The notes under the pieces are model-generated. The model searched no databases. It was not told the origin of the DNA and saw nothing but the letters and a program-made list of their open reading frames with translations. Both the position numbers and the translations under genes were made by a program. A stretch of 64,000 nucleotides of DNA from Tetrahymena thermophila SB210 (taxonomy: Eukaryota > Ciliophora > Oligohymenophorea > Hymenostomatida > Tetrahymenidae). Numbering within the stretch: position 1 is the first letter of the stretch; the number at the start of each line of letters is the position of its first letter. Below, piece by piece: positions 50,231 to 59,892 of the stretch. Location of the stretch: assembly GCF_000189635.1 (NCBI RefSeq), contig NW_002476360.1:71887-135886 (forward strand), given 5' to 3'.

Positions 50231-51493
50231 AAATATTTCAATAAAATTTTACAACTACTTTAATAGATGTATTCAATTTTCGTTTTATAAGAATTTGTAA
50301 AAATAATTTTAAAATATAGATTAAAATTAATCAATTTAAACAATAATGAAATAAAAAATAAGAAAATTGTATCATTATTAAAATTTTGGAATTTACTAAT
50401 CATTAAAAATCTCTAAAACTTTTTAAATTTTAAAATCTAAAATATTTAAATGAATTATAAAGAATAAGTTCACTTTAAGCTTCTTATCAAAAAAAATAAT
50501 TATTGTAAAATGATTTATTTATGATTTAGTAATTTTAGAAAAATAAAAAACTATAAAGATATCAGATAAGAAATTATTTGCAGTTGTATTTGATATTTAT
50601 ATAATGTTTTTGTGGTAATTTTTTATATCAGCAATTCAAAAAATAAATAGACTTTCTTTAATTAAATAATAAATATTGAATTCTTAGCATTATTATTACT
50701 CCTTTATTTTATGAATATTTTACGATAATTTTACAAAATCAATTAATTATACTTAATATCAGAAAGGTGTTTGCTTTAAAATAAAAATTTGTGATAAAAT
50801 TTATATTAACTATTTATTTAATTAGTAAGAATAATAATCATTAAGTTAAGGAAGAAGATATCTGTAAATTTATTATGATGAACATAAATAAATTTTTCAA
50901 TATCCAAATGACAAATCTAAAATTCGGCCATTAAACTTAATTATTTTTACATTTTTTCTATTTTTTATTAAAAAAAATAAATTTAAACTCTTTCTTAATT
51001 ATATTAAAGATTTATTAAAATATTAACAATTCACTTAATATTTCCAATTATCTAAATGATCAGACTATTAGTCAATTTAGCTGAAGCAGGAATAATATCA
51101 TAATTTAAGTAAAATATTCTTTACTATGTAGAGAACATCCGATGATTTATGACTTTTTTCAAAATAGTTTCTCATATTTACATTCAGTTTGCCCTATTAC
51201 CTTACTAGTTACTTTCATTTAAAAATATTAGCAATTTAATGTAAAAAAGTAAAAAATTAATGGTTTTTAGGTAAAGATTGATAGTAATAACTTGTGGTAA
51301 GCTAAAATATAATTTTTAATTGAAATACTAAAGCGCATATGTTACTTAATACATACTGCTATCTTATATTATTAAAAATTTGGGTTGATTTTTCGGTAAT
51401 ATGACAGATATAATAAATAATAAATTAAATAAAAATTGTCAAAATAATTAATTAATTAAGATTAATAAACAATAAATTAACTAATAACTATTA
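50231..51493. other. Spacer, about 1.3 kb
   Basis: AT-rich, between same-strand genes. No coding frame, repeat or RNA gene recognised. Confidence 0.55.
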
Positions 51494-53970
51494 ATGGTGT
51501 TCTCAAATTTTGATTTGTTTTCATCTACTTTCCAATTTAACGTTGGAAAGTAAAACTTGAAAAAAAGAACTTCTTTAGGAGGAATCTTATCACTTTTAGT
51601 TGTTTCAGCAACATTAATTTACTTCATCTATGAGCTTCTTTAGTACTTTAATAACAAAATTGATCCAAAATTTATTTCTTAAAGTTTCATTACAAGCGAT
51701 CCTATTGATGTGGAATTGCATAATGACTTAATTGGATTTAGATACGAGTATATCTTAAATAAAGATTTAATGGATCTTTAAGAAAAAACAAATAAAACTT
51801 ACTTAGTATTTATTCCTGTATTCGAGTATGTAGGTGACGATGGCATCGAAATCATTTAAGTGGATTATTCTAGATGCACTAATTCTTTAATCAGTGGTTT
51901 CATGTGCTTAGATTTCTCATAAATATAAAACTACACCTTAACATTGAGGTCTTTAAATGATATACATTCTAGAATTAACATATTAATATACAGATGTTAG
52001 GATATAGATGATATTAAAACAACTATACCAAATAATTGCGCTGATCCTTTAGAAATATAAAATATGGTAAACAGTCTTGCCTCTGCCTTCCACTTAAAGC
52101 TTTACACTTCACAATACAATACAACTTCTACTTAAATCTAAACAAATTATAGAAACTCATATATTAGTTTTTAAGGAGACTAATTTGTTTACAGTATCTT
52201 TAAGGCTTAAATTTAAAGGACAAAAGTTTAATAAGGACCCTTTTTTTAGTATACTGAATCATACTAATCTCCTATTTAATATGATTAAATTAACTCAGTT
52301 TATGACTATGAAAAATTTAAAATTAAAACTGGCTAAACAAACTTAGTATAAGTCTCAATATAAATGGATGAAATAGTTTAGTATATATAAATACAATATC
52401 ATTCATTTCCTGAAGTGCTGGCTGTTTGCAATAGCACTTTAGCTCTATTAATGCTTTTTGGAGTTTTTGCAAGATATTTTGCTTCTTAACTCATCAAATA
52501 AGATTTTTTCCTTTTGTTTTTACAAAATATGTACTGTGGCACTTATGAAAACATTTTGAAATTAAACAGTATACTGGCCTAAAATGAGCCAATTAATTCT
52601 ACAATCAAAGAAAATCTTTCATTATCCAAACAGTAAGATTAAAAGCTTGAAGAATTAGAAAATATAAAATCGATTATTGTTCCTAGTTTTTAAAGCACAT
52701 TCATTGATCATTTACATTAAAAGTAACTCATATCATAGAAGTCATAACTTGAAAAATAGATAAGTAGTGAGTAAAAGGATAATATCTAAAAGGTTAGCAA
52801 TTAATAAAGTTTTTAGACCACTTAGTTTTTATTTAAGGATAAATTTTAGTAACAAAAATAAAATTTTTAGATCAGTAAAACATAAAATTTTGAATCTACA
52901 ACAAATCCTTTCATTAATAACAGTAATAATGAAGAAATCAATTCATTTTAACCTTAAAGAAAAACCCAAGGTAAAGATTCATTGGTTAACTCAAATAATT
53001 AACTCAATTTTGGACTAGATACAAACATGAGCCCTTACAAATTATAATTAAATTATCCTTAAAGTTAAAAGAAAAATTTTAATTTTCGAAATATCAGCAG
53101 CATTTTTAGCAATTCAGTGTTTTAAAAGATTCAAAAAATAATATTTAGTGTTAGGTAATATTTTTTAATTATTAAATTTATTTTCAATAAGAAAAAAACT
53201 TCATTTCTATTAATAAAATTTATTGAGTGAAGTATCTTTAAAAATTAAATATCTAAAGTAAAAATTTTGTAAGTTTAGCAGATTTTTAACCGAAAAAAAT
53301 ATAAATTGTTTATTTATTTAATTTACTGTAAGTTTTACAACACCTCTACTTATCCTCTCATATTTAAATTAATAAGAAATCAATAAAATAAACATAATAT
53401 TTCTAATTTTATTTTCAAAACTTTTGATTTAAAAATTAAATTATTTACAATAGCTTATTAAAAAGATTATAAAAATAATGATTATTTATTTGAAATTTAA
53501 AATAGACTATGTAAGAAAAGTGAATATTTGAGCTCAAAAGGTCTAGATATCTAAATGAAAAAATAAATAGAAGATTAGGTAAATTAAAGCATAGATATAT
53601 TATAGGTATATTAGGACATTATACTCTTAAAGAAAGCTATAATGATTTTGTTTAATGATGAGTAATTAGCAGCTTTAAAATTAGTAGGATTTTCTCCATC
53701 TAATTATGATTTTAGTAGCTAAAAATAAACATAAAATAATACCGAAGAAAGTAATTTTTGTAAGTTTAGATTTTAATAAATTTATTAATTTTATTTAAAT
53801 TTGTAGAAAATGACCTAAATCACTTCCAGAATTAATACTCTATTTACAATTCAGAAGAAAAATGTATACAGTCAATTCAAAAATTTATATTGAGATGTTA
53901 AACTCAAGATATATTAAGTAAAATTGATAAAAGAATTTATTCTTCATTAAGCTTATCCTTGATAGATTGA
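51494..53970 (+). CDS. Two-pass membrane protein of a ciliate family, paralog A
   Basis: Three exons (51494-53154, 53506-53759, 53807-53970) give 692 residues. A short cytoplasmic head (FDLFSSTFQFNVG) and first membrane segment (GGILSLLVVSATLIYFIYEL) are followed by about 280 extracytoplasmic residues with several Cys and N-glycosylation sequons. A second membrane segment (VLAVCNSTLALLMLFGVFAR) leads to the cytoplasmic motif SQLIKQDFFLLFLQNMY. The rest is a Gln/Ser-rich cytoplasmic region, then a conserved C-terminal helical block (DIILLKKAIMILFNDEQLAA; RCQTQDILSKIDKRIYSSL). Exon phases match paralog B at 56823, which fixed the long 351-nt first intron here. I know this layout from Tetrahymena predicted membrane proteins but know no function. 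Confidence 0.85.
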
Positions 53971-56822
53971 GATAGTATTTAAGTTAAGATGCAAATAAAT
54001 ACCTATAAAATATTCTATAAAGAATTAATATTCTATTCTAACTATTTTAATATGAATGCCAAAATAGTGTATCTACTTAAACTTTTCTCCTAAATAAAAA
54101 CTAAAAGTTTATAACTAATTAGTGTAATTAATTTAATTCATATCTGTTTTTTATGTATCATAGCTTGTAAATTATAAAAATGTTTTTTTATATTTTAATT
54201 AATCAATAAATTTTATAATTCAGATTTTACTTAATCCTTTTATAAAAGTAAAAGGGATTTATTTATTATTTTAAAAATAAATAAAAGCTATTTATTTCAA
54301 AATAATTATAAAAATTATTTTTACAACTAAATCAATTTATAAGAAATTCGATCAAGTTTATATAGCTTTTATAATAAATATCTAGTTAATTTAAAACAAT
54401 TTTCAAAAATGAAATTAATAAGAATGATACTATTAATAAATTTTGAATATCAATTATTTAATAAATCTTTATAGTAAATACTAAAAGTTTATTTTTGAAT
54501 TGATTAATATTTTTACTTATTTGCTAAATACTTTCAATAAGACTAATTTAAAAATTTCTAATTTTTATTAATGATAAGGTTTTAATATCATTTCAAAGTA
54601 TGCATAAAAACTTTGATATAAATTTTATTAAATAAAATTATCTGTCTGATAAATGTTCATCAAATTTTATAGCAATAAAAAATAGAAATATTTTATTCAT
54701 TTTTTTTTTAATAATAAAAGTAAATTTGTAAATTTATGAATTAATCAATAGAAATTCTGGTTTAAAATAATTTTGAAGTATTAATTAAATATTTTTTTCC
54801 CAATATAATCCTTTAAATTATTTTTTATTAGCTTAATTTGATAGATGATAGAATTAAATACATCTTTTTTTCTTCTTAAAGTTGTTTTAATAATCCAAAT
54901 TAATGTTTTATTTAGTGTGAACTCTTTTAATTTCTTAAATATTTAAATATTTATTTATTCATTTTAAATAATAATCTAAAATTAAAATTTACATATTAAA
55001 TTACAAAATCTTAGATTTTAAAATTGGATGAAAATAATTTTAATAGTAATAAATTTTAAAACTTAAAATATAAAATATTTTTTTATTACAAATATTAATT
55101 CAAAATTTTGGTTTTAGGCTTTTAATGCTCTATCCTATGAAATATAATAATAATTTAGCCAATGAATAAATATATTTTTTTTAATATCAATAAAATTGTA
55201 ATTAATAAATAATTTTCTGATAAAAAAAGAACTAATTACTAATATCATTTTTTAGTGAACAAATATTTACTAAGCAATTACTTTTTGAATAATTTTTTAT
55301 CTTCTTTTACTAACATTCAACTTTAAAAACGAATAAAAATCTTACTAATTTTATATTTAGTTTTTTTAACTAAAACGGTAAATAAAATGAATGTTTCAAA
55401 TTTGTATTTCTGTAATAATGCTGCTTTTTTAATCATAATATCATTTTAATTTGAATAATGCAAAACATATAGTATAAAGATTTTTAAAAATTTGCATATC
55501 AATCTTTATTATTTTAGTATTAGTAACAATTTGTGTTTCAATAATCTTCATCACAAACATATAATATTGGGTGGCAAGATGTACCCTAGCAGCAAAAATC
55601 AAATAATTCTTCAACATCACAATGATCTCCTAACTAAAGACATTAAGGCTATTAAGGTTCATGACTAAATCTTAATTTCTTTCCTAAAGTTGCGCTCATC
55701 AACAAAGAAAGTATTAATAAAACAAAGATGTGAAATTTCATTCTATTTATTTATTATTTTTTAGCGTTTTTTATAGTTAATGTTTTATCTTTCAAATAAT
55801 TATGATTATAATTTTTTTAAATGTATTTATCCTAATATACCCTTCTATTTTTGAATATATTTTTTTGATTTAGTAGCTAATATAAATTTTCAACACTTAA
55901 TTAAGAAGTTTATATTTATTTATTTAAATAAAAAAAATATTTTATCATAAATTATTAAATATTTAGTTAATCCTTGTTAACTACTTATTATATAAAAGCT
56001 AACAATATGTTAGAAACAAATTATTTATATTTTTTATATGATTTGGGATAAAATTTTAGTATTTAAGCAAATTCACTAAATTATTCAATAATGAATTGGC
56101 AATCTAAGCAAATTTATTATAAATTCTATTTTAAAATTTAAAAAATTAATAATTTAATATAGTTCATTAAATCTAATATTTTATAATTTTTATAAATTGG
56201 CAGTTTTAATATTTTATCTATTGATAAAAAAAATGAATTTTATAATAAAAAAGACTTATTTTTAAGAAGTTTTTAAAGAAGTTATAAAAGGTAGTATCAT
56301 TTCATTTTCCCTTTATTTAATACAAAAATTTATTTTTAGAAATAATTTTTAAATTTTAAATATTTTTTAATAGAAAATAAATTTTAGTTAACTATTTTTT
56401 TAATTTTGTTATGATAAATCTAAATTAATAACAAATAATTAAGAAGAAAGGGTTATTTCATTTTATTATTTGATTTTTTTTACTAAATCTAGCTAATAAA
56501 AAAAGACTAAGGATTATTCATACTTTTTAATAAATGCTTAATTCAATCTAAATTTTATAATGGGTGCATTAAATAAAAAAATAGAATGACTACAAATTTC
56601 AATTAAATAATAAATTATTTAAATTTAATTGTATTATAATTATTATAACAATTAATGAAAAAGAATAGTTTATTCGACTCATTGTTTATTTTTTTGGTTA
56701 ATTTATTTATTTACAATTTATAAAAATAATAAATTAATGATTATTTAATAATATTAATAGTTGTTTAAATATTCTTTCAGTTTATTAAGTTAAAAGTTCT
56801 ACTGCTAAATATACTAACTATC
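53971..56822. other. Spacer of about 2.9 kb between the two paralogs
   Basis: Very AT-rich except for a sharply less AT-rich island at 55530-55745, which is the cysteine-rich peptide gene on the minus strand. Nothing else recognised. Confidence 0.6.
55538..55741 (-). CDS. Small secreted six-cysteine peptide with inhibitor-cystine-knot (knottin) spacing
   Basis: A 67-residue, single-exon gene hidden in a spacer. Residues 1-20 are a textbook signal peptide (MKFHIFVLLILSLLMSATLG) with cleavage expected near residue 18-21. A short basic/Gln-Pro segment precedes six cysteines at 34, 41, 50, 51, 56 and 63. The spacing C-x6-C-x8-CC-x4-C-x6-C is that of the inhibitor cystine knot. There are no other cysteines, as expected for three disulphides. 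The mature part is acidic (CDVEELFDFCC, ending CDEDY). It ends at a proper TGA and uses TAA/TAG as Gln four times. Knottins occur in animal venoms, plants and fungi as channel ligands, protease inhibitors or antimicrobials. No activity can be assigned here. Local base composition differs strongly from the surrounding spacer. Confidence 0.82.
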
Positions 56823-59068
56823 ATGAATCTAATTACAAGGATAAAACAATTAGATCTTTTCTCTTCAAATTTTCAATTCAATATGGAATCAAATTAACTA
56901 AAAAAGAGAACATTGTTCGGTGCAATATTGTCTTTATTAGTTCTTGGTGTTGCATTTTGCTATTTTATATACCAAATGTATTTGTATGTTGATAATTAAA
57001 TATAGCCAACATTCAGAGCTTAAAGTTTTATTTAGGAAGACACTAGTGTAGATTTAAATAATAATCTTGTTGGATTTAGATACTTGTATAACTTTAATAC
57101 AAGCTTAGATTAAGTTTAATCTTCTACTAATACTACCTATTTAGTGTTTGTTCCTTAATTTTAGTTTTTAAATTATGATGACTACGAATTAATTCCACTT
57201 GATATTATTGAATGTTAAGATCCTTAACTTGATGGATTTCACTGTTTAGATTTTTCTAAAATTTAGAATTACACTCTCATCTCAGCTTAAAATAATAAAA
57301 TTTGGTCAAGTATTATAATCTATGCTTACACATGTTAGGATGCAAAAGTAAAGAATATTTAAGTATCAAATAATTGCGCCAGCGAGAATGATATAGATAC
57401 TATGATTAACAGTGGTGGAAGTGCTTTTTAAATAAAGCTACAAACTTCTTAATACAACATCACTAAAAAGCAAATCTAAACCAACTACAGGAACTAATAT
57501 ATTGATTTTTATTTGAATGAGTTTATAATATCTGACTTCAAAACATAAAAATAAATAACCTAGGTGAAATAAGGACCATTTATATAGGAGGAAACTACAT
57601 TTTCATCTCCTATTTAGTATTCGATGACAACTCAGTCGTTTGATAGAGCAAACTAAATTTAGCAACTCAACAATACAGCTTTACTTTAAGTTTTTATTGA
57701 GATGGATGAAATTGCTTAGTTTTTTTTTATTTCTTATCCAACATTCCCTCAAGTGCTAGCTGTTTGCAATAGCATTCTTGCTCTATTTATGTGTGTAGGT
57801 GTTTTGGGTAGAAGTATTTCCTAACAATTGATAAAATAAGATATTTTCTTACTTATCTTACAAAACATACATTAAGGAAAATACCTTGAACTGCTAAAGA
57901 AAAATAAACTTATAGCATAAGAAAATTAGAATTAACAATAAGAAAGCTATTAAAAGGATATTCATGAATAAGATTTTATGTAATCCGAAACTTAAGAACC
58001 TATAAAAATTCCAGCATTTTTAACTAAATCTAGATAATCTGTAGACTAAAATGCATTAAGTCCTCATCTTCTTCCCTCTATCAATAATTTTGAAAACTCT
58101 CAATAAGATGAAATAATTGAAAGTAAAATATAAGAATCTACAATTTAGAGCAATTCAAGATAGCTAAATTCTATAGATTAAAGAGATTAATTTCCTGTAC
58201 TTGGAAATTAAATAACTTCAAGTGAAAATAATTATCCTTTAATAACATAGTCTTTTTAAAAAGATTAAAGTTTTCTGTTTAATTCTAAATTGAAAAAAAG
58301 GGAATCTTAATTTTCTAATAAAATACCACAATTATTTCTAAAATAGACTCAAAAAAAAAATACAATTAATAAAAATAAACCAAAAAATCATGAAAATCTT
58401 GAGGATAAATAATTAAAATAATAGTAAAATAAAATATCTATGCCTCCATTAACATAGTCAGAGAGTTTTTTATCTAAAGTGAAACAAATTAAGGATAAAA
58501 TCTTTTAAAAAAGGATTCATAATTCTTTATTTGGATTTAGGTAAATTATTAAAAAAAAACATTTCAATATTTGTATTAATTCTATATTTTCAATTTCATC
58601 AATAGGTTTTGGAAAAAGAATGAGTATTTTAAATCATTAGAACTCAATCATTCATTTTTTTAAAACATGGAGAGTGATGTTTAATAGAACTTAAATATTT
58701 TTCATCTGTACAAATAAATCATTGTATTGTAAAAAGCATTAATGGTTTTATTAACTCCTGATTAATTTGCTGCAATAAAACTTATGGGTTGCTCTGAGAA
58801 GCTTTCTACTTTATTATTGAATAATAAAAAAGAAAAATTGTGTAAAATTTTTAATTTATTGAAAAAATAAAATAAATTTTTTAAATATTAAAAAGCTTAA
58901 AAAATTTAAATGAGTCATTTTGAAGAGTAATTTGTAAGCTAATTCTATGAAGATGAAGAGCAAAAACAGATAAACAATTTTTTTTAACGGTGCCAAAATA
59001 AAAAGAATGTATGTGAATTAGACAATAGAATATATCATTCTATAATAAAATGTTATTCAAGTTAATGA
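56823..59068 (+). CDS. Two-pass membrane protein of the same ciliate family, paralog B
   Basis: Three exons (56823-58540, 58606-58841, 58896-59068) give 708 residues with the same plan as paralog A. The head is DLFSSNFQFNMES, the first membrane segment is GAILSLLVLGVAFCYFIYQM, then an extracytoplasmic domain with paired motifs such as VGFRYLYNFN and VSNNCAS. The second membrane segment (VLAVCNSILALFMCVGVLGR) is followed by SQQLIKQDIFLLILQNIHQG, a Gln/Ser-rich linker, and the C-terminal block KQIIVLQKALMVLLTPDQFA. Intron phases (2, then 1) equal those of paralog A. The last exon lies inside a 255-bp tandem duplication, so a second, nearly intact copy of its coding end sits just downstream. The function is unknown. 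The two genes are a local duplication pair. Confidence 0.85.
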
Positions 59069-59412
59069 TTTTTGTGGATATAAATAAATGCACTTAAAAT
59101 TTAATCGAAAAAATTCTATCAAATTGAAATTTTTAATTATAAAAAAATTATTCATCAAATTTAAATGAGTCATTTTGAAGAGTAATTTTTAAGCTAATTC
59201 TATGAAGATGAAGAGCAAAAACAAATAAACAATTTTTTTTAACGGTGCGAAATTAAAAAGAATGTATGTGAATTAGACAATAGAATATATCATTCGATAA
59301 TAAAATGTTATTCAAGTTAATGATTTTTGTGGATATAAATAAATGCACTTAAAATTTAATCGAAAAAATTCTATCAAATTGAAATTTTTAATTATAAAAA
59401 AATTATTCATCA
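58902..59412. repeat. 255-bp tandem duplication covering the last exon of the preceding gene
   Basis: Copy 1 (about 58902-59156) and copy 2 (about 59157-59412) differ at only a handful of bases, so the duplication is recent. Each starts AAATTTAAATGAGTCATTTT and includes the coding end of the membrane protein, its TGA (59066 and 59321) and about 90 bases of 3' flank ending TTATTCATCAAA. Confidence 0.96.
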
Positions 59413-59892
59413 AAATTAAAATCAATTTAAAAATAATTTTTATTTATTTAAATGTCAAAAATAAATTCTTAAAAATTAATTTCTGTAAAAAAAATTCTAG
59501 ATTAAAAAATATTGGTTTTATTTAGTTTAATTATTCAGGATTTATATAAATTTAAGTTATAAAACACATTAGAGTTATTTTAAACTCTAAAAAACTTCTT
59601 AAAATTATTTTTAAATAAAATTATATGTCTTAGATATTTTAAATTATCTTCTACTACTATGAGTTCAAAGATCATATTATTCAAAATCTTCATTTTAAGA
59701 ATTAAGTCTTTGTTATTTAAGTGTTATAATGTCTGAATCAAGATTTTGGTTCAAATTTTATAGCCTTCTTTCGATATTTAATTTTAAAGCAGATGTGTTA
59801 GATTTCATTGATCTTACTCTTTTTTATCATAAAAAATAGTTAAAAATAAATGGATAAACATAAGAAATTAGGTTTACTCCTTTTGTATGCTA
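59069..59892. other. Spacer between convergent genes
   Basis: Contains the second repeat copy, then AT-rich DNA to the 3' end of the minus-strand gene. An open frame at 59343 lies in the repeat flank, is nearly all Lys/Ile/Asn, and is not called. Confidence 0.6.
59165..59323 (+). pseudogene. Duplicated terminal exon (copy 2) of the membrane protein
   Basis: This segment encodes the same ~52-residue end as exon 3 of the gene at 56823, with four amino-acid differences (for example FVSQFYEDEE versus FLSQFYEDEE, and RCQNKK versus RCEIKK) and an intact TGA. It begins with an in-frame ATG (MSHFEEQF), but there is no separate promoter evidence. It is downstream of the stop of copy 1, so it would be used only by alternative splicing or not at all. 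Confidence 0.7.

Follow-up and report, generated by a model that had tools for sequence, protein, structure and literature searches.

Knottins are channel ligands and inhibitors, known chiefly from animals and plants. The knottin, or inhibitor cystine knot (ICK), is defined by the disulphides I-IV, II-V, and III-VI, with III-VI passing through the ring (PMC6024828, PMC2984590). Here, we describe a candidate knottin gene from the ciliate Tetrahymena thermophila SB210, whose probably secreted product resembles the knotted mini-proteins in the venoms of spiders and cone snails. The gene is located at 55538..55741, on the minus strand, of a 64,000-nucleotide stretch of contig NW_002476360.1 (positions 71,887 to 135,886), which we call the window and whose coordinates are used throughout. 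We think it probable that the gene is genuine, apparently lacks introns, and has as its product a secreted, acidic mini-protein of the knottin type. New here are nine further genes in T. thermophila with a related Cys framework.

The pheromones of Euplotes are acidic, cysteine-rich, secreted proteins of 37-105 residues, two of which are described as losing a signal peptide and a pro-segment; a helical fold is common to the structures that have been solved, and a CX1-3CCX2-3C motif occurs in several (PMC9229436). They are examples of acidic, disulphide-rich proteins that serve ciliates as signals. The peptide encoded in the window is likewise acidic, Cys-rich, putatively secreted, and from a ciliate, but it has x8-CC-x4 in place of the CX1-3CCX2-3C motif, and its mature fold is predicted to be beta. 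The cell-free co-stimulation factor of Tetrahymena is described as large (PMC12029339), and the window peptide is therefore unlikely to be that factor. The earlier note on this DNA knew of no such peptide from ciliates, and none appears in the titles or abstract openings of papers on ciliates and cystine knots, a body of text in which most subscription papers are uncovered. Similarly, among the matches listed for secreted or Cys-rich ciliate peptides, titles and abstract openings mention no knottin-type peptide. PMC9865768 and PMC10530976 mention Tetrahymena only in their reference lists, and in two papers that contain both knottin and protist, the word protist refers to targets of defensins in one and to tyrosine kinases in the other. 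T. thermophila data were used in a eukaryote-wide survey of small secreted peptides of the plant type, and neither knottin nor cysteine-rich appears in its main text (PMC13091385).

Translation of 55741..55538 on the minus strand with the ciliate code (table 6) gives MKFHIFVLLILSLLMSATLGKKLRFSHEPQQPQCLQLGDHCDVEELFDFCCQGTSCHPILYVCDEDY, with TGA at the end; this is the coding sequence (CDS) of a 67-residue prepeptide, apparently without an intron. Five TAA or TAG codons in the CDS are read as Gln with table 6 and as stops with table 11. The prepeptide contains six Cys in total, arranged as C-x6-C-x8-CC-x4-C-x6-C. Thus, the 67-codon open reading frame (ORF), the leader, and the Cys order without extra Cys that had been reported from the sequence alone are all present in the ciliate-code translation. 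The loops of 6, 8, 0, 4, and 6 residues have the knottin order C..C..CC..C..C and lie within the range of loop lengths known for knottins. The frame stays open upstream to an ATG at 56167; however, the Met at 55741 is supported as the start because the orthologue described below has the same start Met.

The prepeptide has three parts. Residues 1-20 (55682..55741, minus strand) are a predicted signal peptide, probably cleaved after Gly20; the N-terminus is hydrophobic, with a Kyte-Doolittle mean that peaks at 2.94 over the 12 residues starting at residue 5. Residues 21-33 (KKLRFSHEPQQPQ; 55643..55681, minus strand) form a linker or short pro-segment, in which dibasic processing is possible. Residues 34-63 (55553..55642, minus strand) are the six-cysteine core, for which a knottin-like fold is predicted. 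With the spider ICK peptides of the Toxin_12 (PF07740) type, the window peptide shares a signal-peptide-like leader, the six-Cys framework with CC at positions 3-4, the CCxGxxC motif, a predicted C-terminal hairpin, and a core of 30 residues from C1 to C6. In contrast to them, it comes from a ciliate, has a net charge of -8 and an x8 loop 2, lacks a venom context and a Pfam match above cut-off, and has putative disulphides.

A protein database search with the window peptide returned two proteins, the window's own (P0001) and ABPG74_016843 of T. malaccensis, an orthologue of 66 residues (E 2.4e-29). The two are identical at 52 of 65 positions (80%), with no gaps, a common start Met, and all six Cys retained, so the Cys pattern is conserved in a related species. 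The identity is 15/20 in the signal region, 9/13 in the linker, and 28/32 in residues 34-65, where every Cys is kept; the mature Cys domain is the best conserved part of the peptide between the two species. Loop 2, DVEELFDF, is identical at 8/8 residues and the hairpin loop, HPILYV, at 6/6. When the two peptides together served as a profile against the protein database, in a search that needs shared 5-residue words, no third relative emerged among 4 candidates. The database lists P0001 as well as the named NCBI protein of T. malaccensis; to the extent of this listing, the suggestion that the gene is hidden, or escapes gene finders by its shortness, is contradicted, and P0001 is probably an already predicted public gene model.

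The exact Cys pattern and two looser ICK patterns each match the window once, always at 55538..55741. The totals for the exact, looser, and loosest patterns were 0, 0, and 2 in 100 first-order Markov windows and 0, 1, and 3 in 100 triplet shuffles of the window. The orthologue is stronger evidence than these counts because the pattern was picked after the sequence was seen. The G+C content of the CDS is 0.299, vs 0.134 and 0.154 in the two 500-base flanks. Judged by this conservation and composition, the ORF is a genuine gene.

The mature part was modelled with AlphaFold2 from two sequences only, giving a hairpin at moderate confidence (predicted local distance difference test score, pLDDT, 74). 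The four best VIA-align matches of this model are spider knottins, with 0.9-1.2 Å over 33 residues, and the model overlays knottins across the entire Cys region; the absence of a fold family from the VIA list does not count against that family. It has no helix of 4 or more residues, whereas the full-length model, which is too poor for use, has short helices in the mature part. In profile searches, the orthologue matched Toxin_12 with E 0.23 (12.6 bits vs a cut-off of 21), the window peptide did not match this family at E ≤ 10, and a search of NCBIfam gave no match.

The nine further genes, with the framework C-x6-C-x(5-13)-CC-x(3-4)-C-x(8-13)-C, came from a search of the 101.0 Mb assembly and are named here by contig label. 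PF07740 matched three places, at C91 (29.2 bits), C433 (19.4 bits), and C329 (15.1 bits; cut-off 21); in 14 control genomes, not matched for size, it gave a match in one and none above the cut-off. Pfam Conotoxin and Toxin_7 had no match in the T. thermophila genome at E ≤ 10. Short proteins with a C-terminal six-Cys core are encoded at C91, C433, and C329, and a second such frame adjoins that at C329. With these genes as queries, protein searches further yielded C167 (E 3.2e-8), two genes at C135 (only E 0.015 and 0.024), and two tandem copies at C219 (E 0.002 from C433, and 9.5e-5 in reverse). The nine genes form three groups, C91/C167/C329, the C135 pair, and C433/C219, with links that are better within groups and weak between them. 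Seven of the nine, all but the C219 pair, were scanned with Pfam; a knottin-type toxin family came first or tied first every time, and only the C91 gene exceeded a Pfam cut-off (Toxin_12, 29 vs 21 bits).

With the window gene included, loop 1 has six residues and CC is present in all ten genes, x4 follows CC in nine, loop 2 ranges from 5 to 13 residues, and the last loop from 6 to 13; the gene set was found by way of an ICK model and its relatives, so that the framework is partly selected for. A hydrophobic leader is clear in eight of the nine further genes. The upstream C329 gene (L023 5990-6276) has no clean in-frame signal-peptide start and may have a missed first exon or be a decayed copy. 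Alignment by hhalign of the window peptide pair with a profile of eight family members gave a probability of 90; in a rerun (probability 86), the observed score was reached by 2 of 100 shuffles with Cys kept and 0 of 100 full shuffles. This comparison weakly supports kinship of the nine genes to the window gene. Searches with the window peptide or its orthologue miss the nine genes and family searches miss the window gene, so that common descent is no more than possible.

How well does the knottin-type reading stand? The leader, the Cys framework, the conservation, the predicted fold, and the framework-sharing genes support the secreted knottin-like peptide proposed in the earlier note. On the other side of the balance, P0001 has no match in Pfam at E ≤ 10, and no Foldseek match of the mature model reaches a significant E-value. 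We suggest that the leader would target the peptide to the endoplasmic reticulum and be removed near Gly20, and that the resulting peptide of 47 residues, or fewer, would form, on oxidation, a cystine knot (1-4, 2-5, 3-6) that includes a C-terminal beta-hairpin. Once released, it would bind a single specific protein as its ligand or inhibitor, either extracellularly or within a secretory compartment, with the conserved acidic loop 2 and the hairpin loop as the putative binding face. The partner may be an endogenous receptor, channel, or secreted protease of Tetrahymena, a choice that conservation favours over a target in prey or a pathogen. We infer this function, preferring an endogenous ligand or inhibitor to a venom-like effector because the mature part is conserved and very acidic.

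A secreted six-Cys peptide with some other fold, hevein-like, truncated LDL-receptor class A (LDLa)-like, or a novel disulphide arrangement, and with no cystine knot, would fit the missing knottin match in Pfam and the moderate model confidence. It would also fit the best PDB sequence matches of the peptide, which are VLDL-receptor class A modules (E 0.07-0.23) aligned over a C-x-P-x-x-(W/Y)-x-C-D stretch of 19-20 residues. However, a complete LDLa module has six Cys and a C-terminal calcium site, and the match covers only about half of one. The second half is absent from the window peptide, which has a CC pair, and the ORF ends four residues past the last Cys, before the remaining LDLa Cys and the calcium-binding acids. 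Furthermore, neither hevein nor LDLa matches P0001, its mature part, or P0002 in Pfam at E ≤ 10, and the predicted fold overlays knottins over the whole Cys region. We therefore regard another fold as unlikely.

The genes also differ in how their parts evolve. Five pairs were compared by identity and by nonsynonymous (dN) and synonymous (dS) divergence, with residues 1-28 taken as the leader. Between the two tandem C135 genes, 25 of 28 leader residues are identical (dN 0.048, dS 0.575), against 7 of 24 in the non-Cys mature part (dN 0.858, dS 0.903); a dN/dS near 1 in this pair is not proof of positive selection. A conserved leader with a variable mature part is the pattern of venom and defence families. 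Three more distant pairs, which are saturated at synonymous sites or partly misaligned, have 18, 12, and 11 of 28 leader residues identical, with 4/25, 5/19, and 7/23 in the non-Cys mature part. In four of the five pairs, conservation is thus higher in the leader than in the non-Cys mature residues. The C219 pair is reversed, with a mature part identical at 40/40 residues and a leader at 27/28. The window gene, with its conserved mature part, resembles the C219 pair and not the C135 pair.

The earlier note considered that the peptide could be a pheromone or a factor in defence or predation. These patterns bear on whether the scaffold serves as a weapon, that is, whether it is an effector under diversifying selection, used in defence or predation, with bacteria, competitors, or prey as targets. 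The presence of about ten genes with a knottin-like scaffold, the C135 pair, and the better conserved leaders would agree with such a use, but the dN/dS of a single pair and three pairs with saturation or misalignment carry it little further, and the C219 pair and the window gene run the other way. Most membrane-active or cationic effectors are unlike a strongly acidic peptide, and the net charge of the window peptide from C1 to the end is -8, vs -2 to +1 for the other nine genes. For the window gene itself, the evidence speaks against a cationic antimicrobial or a fast-evolving weapon because the mature domain is strongly conserved and has this charge. A weapon thus appears decidedly improbable. 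That the ORF arose by chance in AT-rich spacer, without a product, is scarcely credible: TGA is the sole stop, so that ORF length alone means little, and 87 ORFs of at least 60 residues overlap the last 14 kb, but the ungapped, 80% identical orthologue nearly refutes it, and the G+C content about twice that of the flanks and the absence of the exact Cys pattern from all 200 randomised windows also argue against it.

Returning to the knottin-type reading, we tentatively propose a wider form of it, which falls somewhat short of probable: Tetrahymena would have a multigene family of secreted cystine-knot peptides, ten genes on seven contigs, in which some members diversify in the mature domain under a conserved leader, as in venom and defence families, and the window gene is a conserved endogenous member. 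If so, a venom-type scaffold and its mode of evolution would be found in a free-living unicellular alveolate. Nine similar genes are present in the same genome, and therefore single-celled ciliates may also use the knottin scaffold, which would bear on whether that scaffold arose repeatedly or is older than thought. The genes provide specific candidates for soluble signalling peptides or inhibitors in Tetrahymena, and in a genetically tractable ciliate with few of them, their native roles would be open to knock-out and peptidomics.

The peptide gene is antisense in the spacer between two related transmembrane-protein genes on the plus strand. The ORF at 51401..53230 is identical over 554/554 residues to P0010 of T. 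thermophila SB210. That at 56586..58820, a relative of the first, is 99% identical to P0003 over 56% of the ORF and 50% identical to P0010 over 48%. For both ORFs, the sole Pfam match is ERGIC_N, with a score under the cut-off, and 14 of 22 listed relatives of the flanking genes carry the public name 'AMP-binding enzyme family protein'. The genes probably extend over 51401-53893 and 56586-59068 (plus strand). A 255-base unit in two tandem copies with a 97% match, at 58902-59420, overlaps the apparent 3' end of the second flanking gene.
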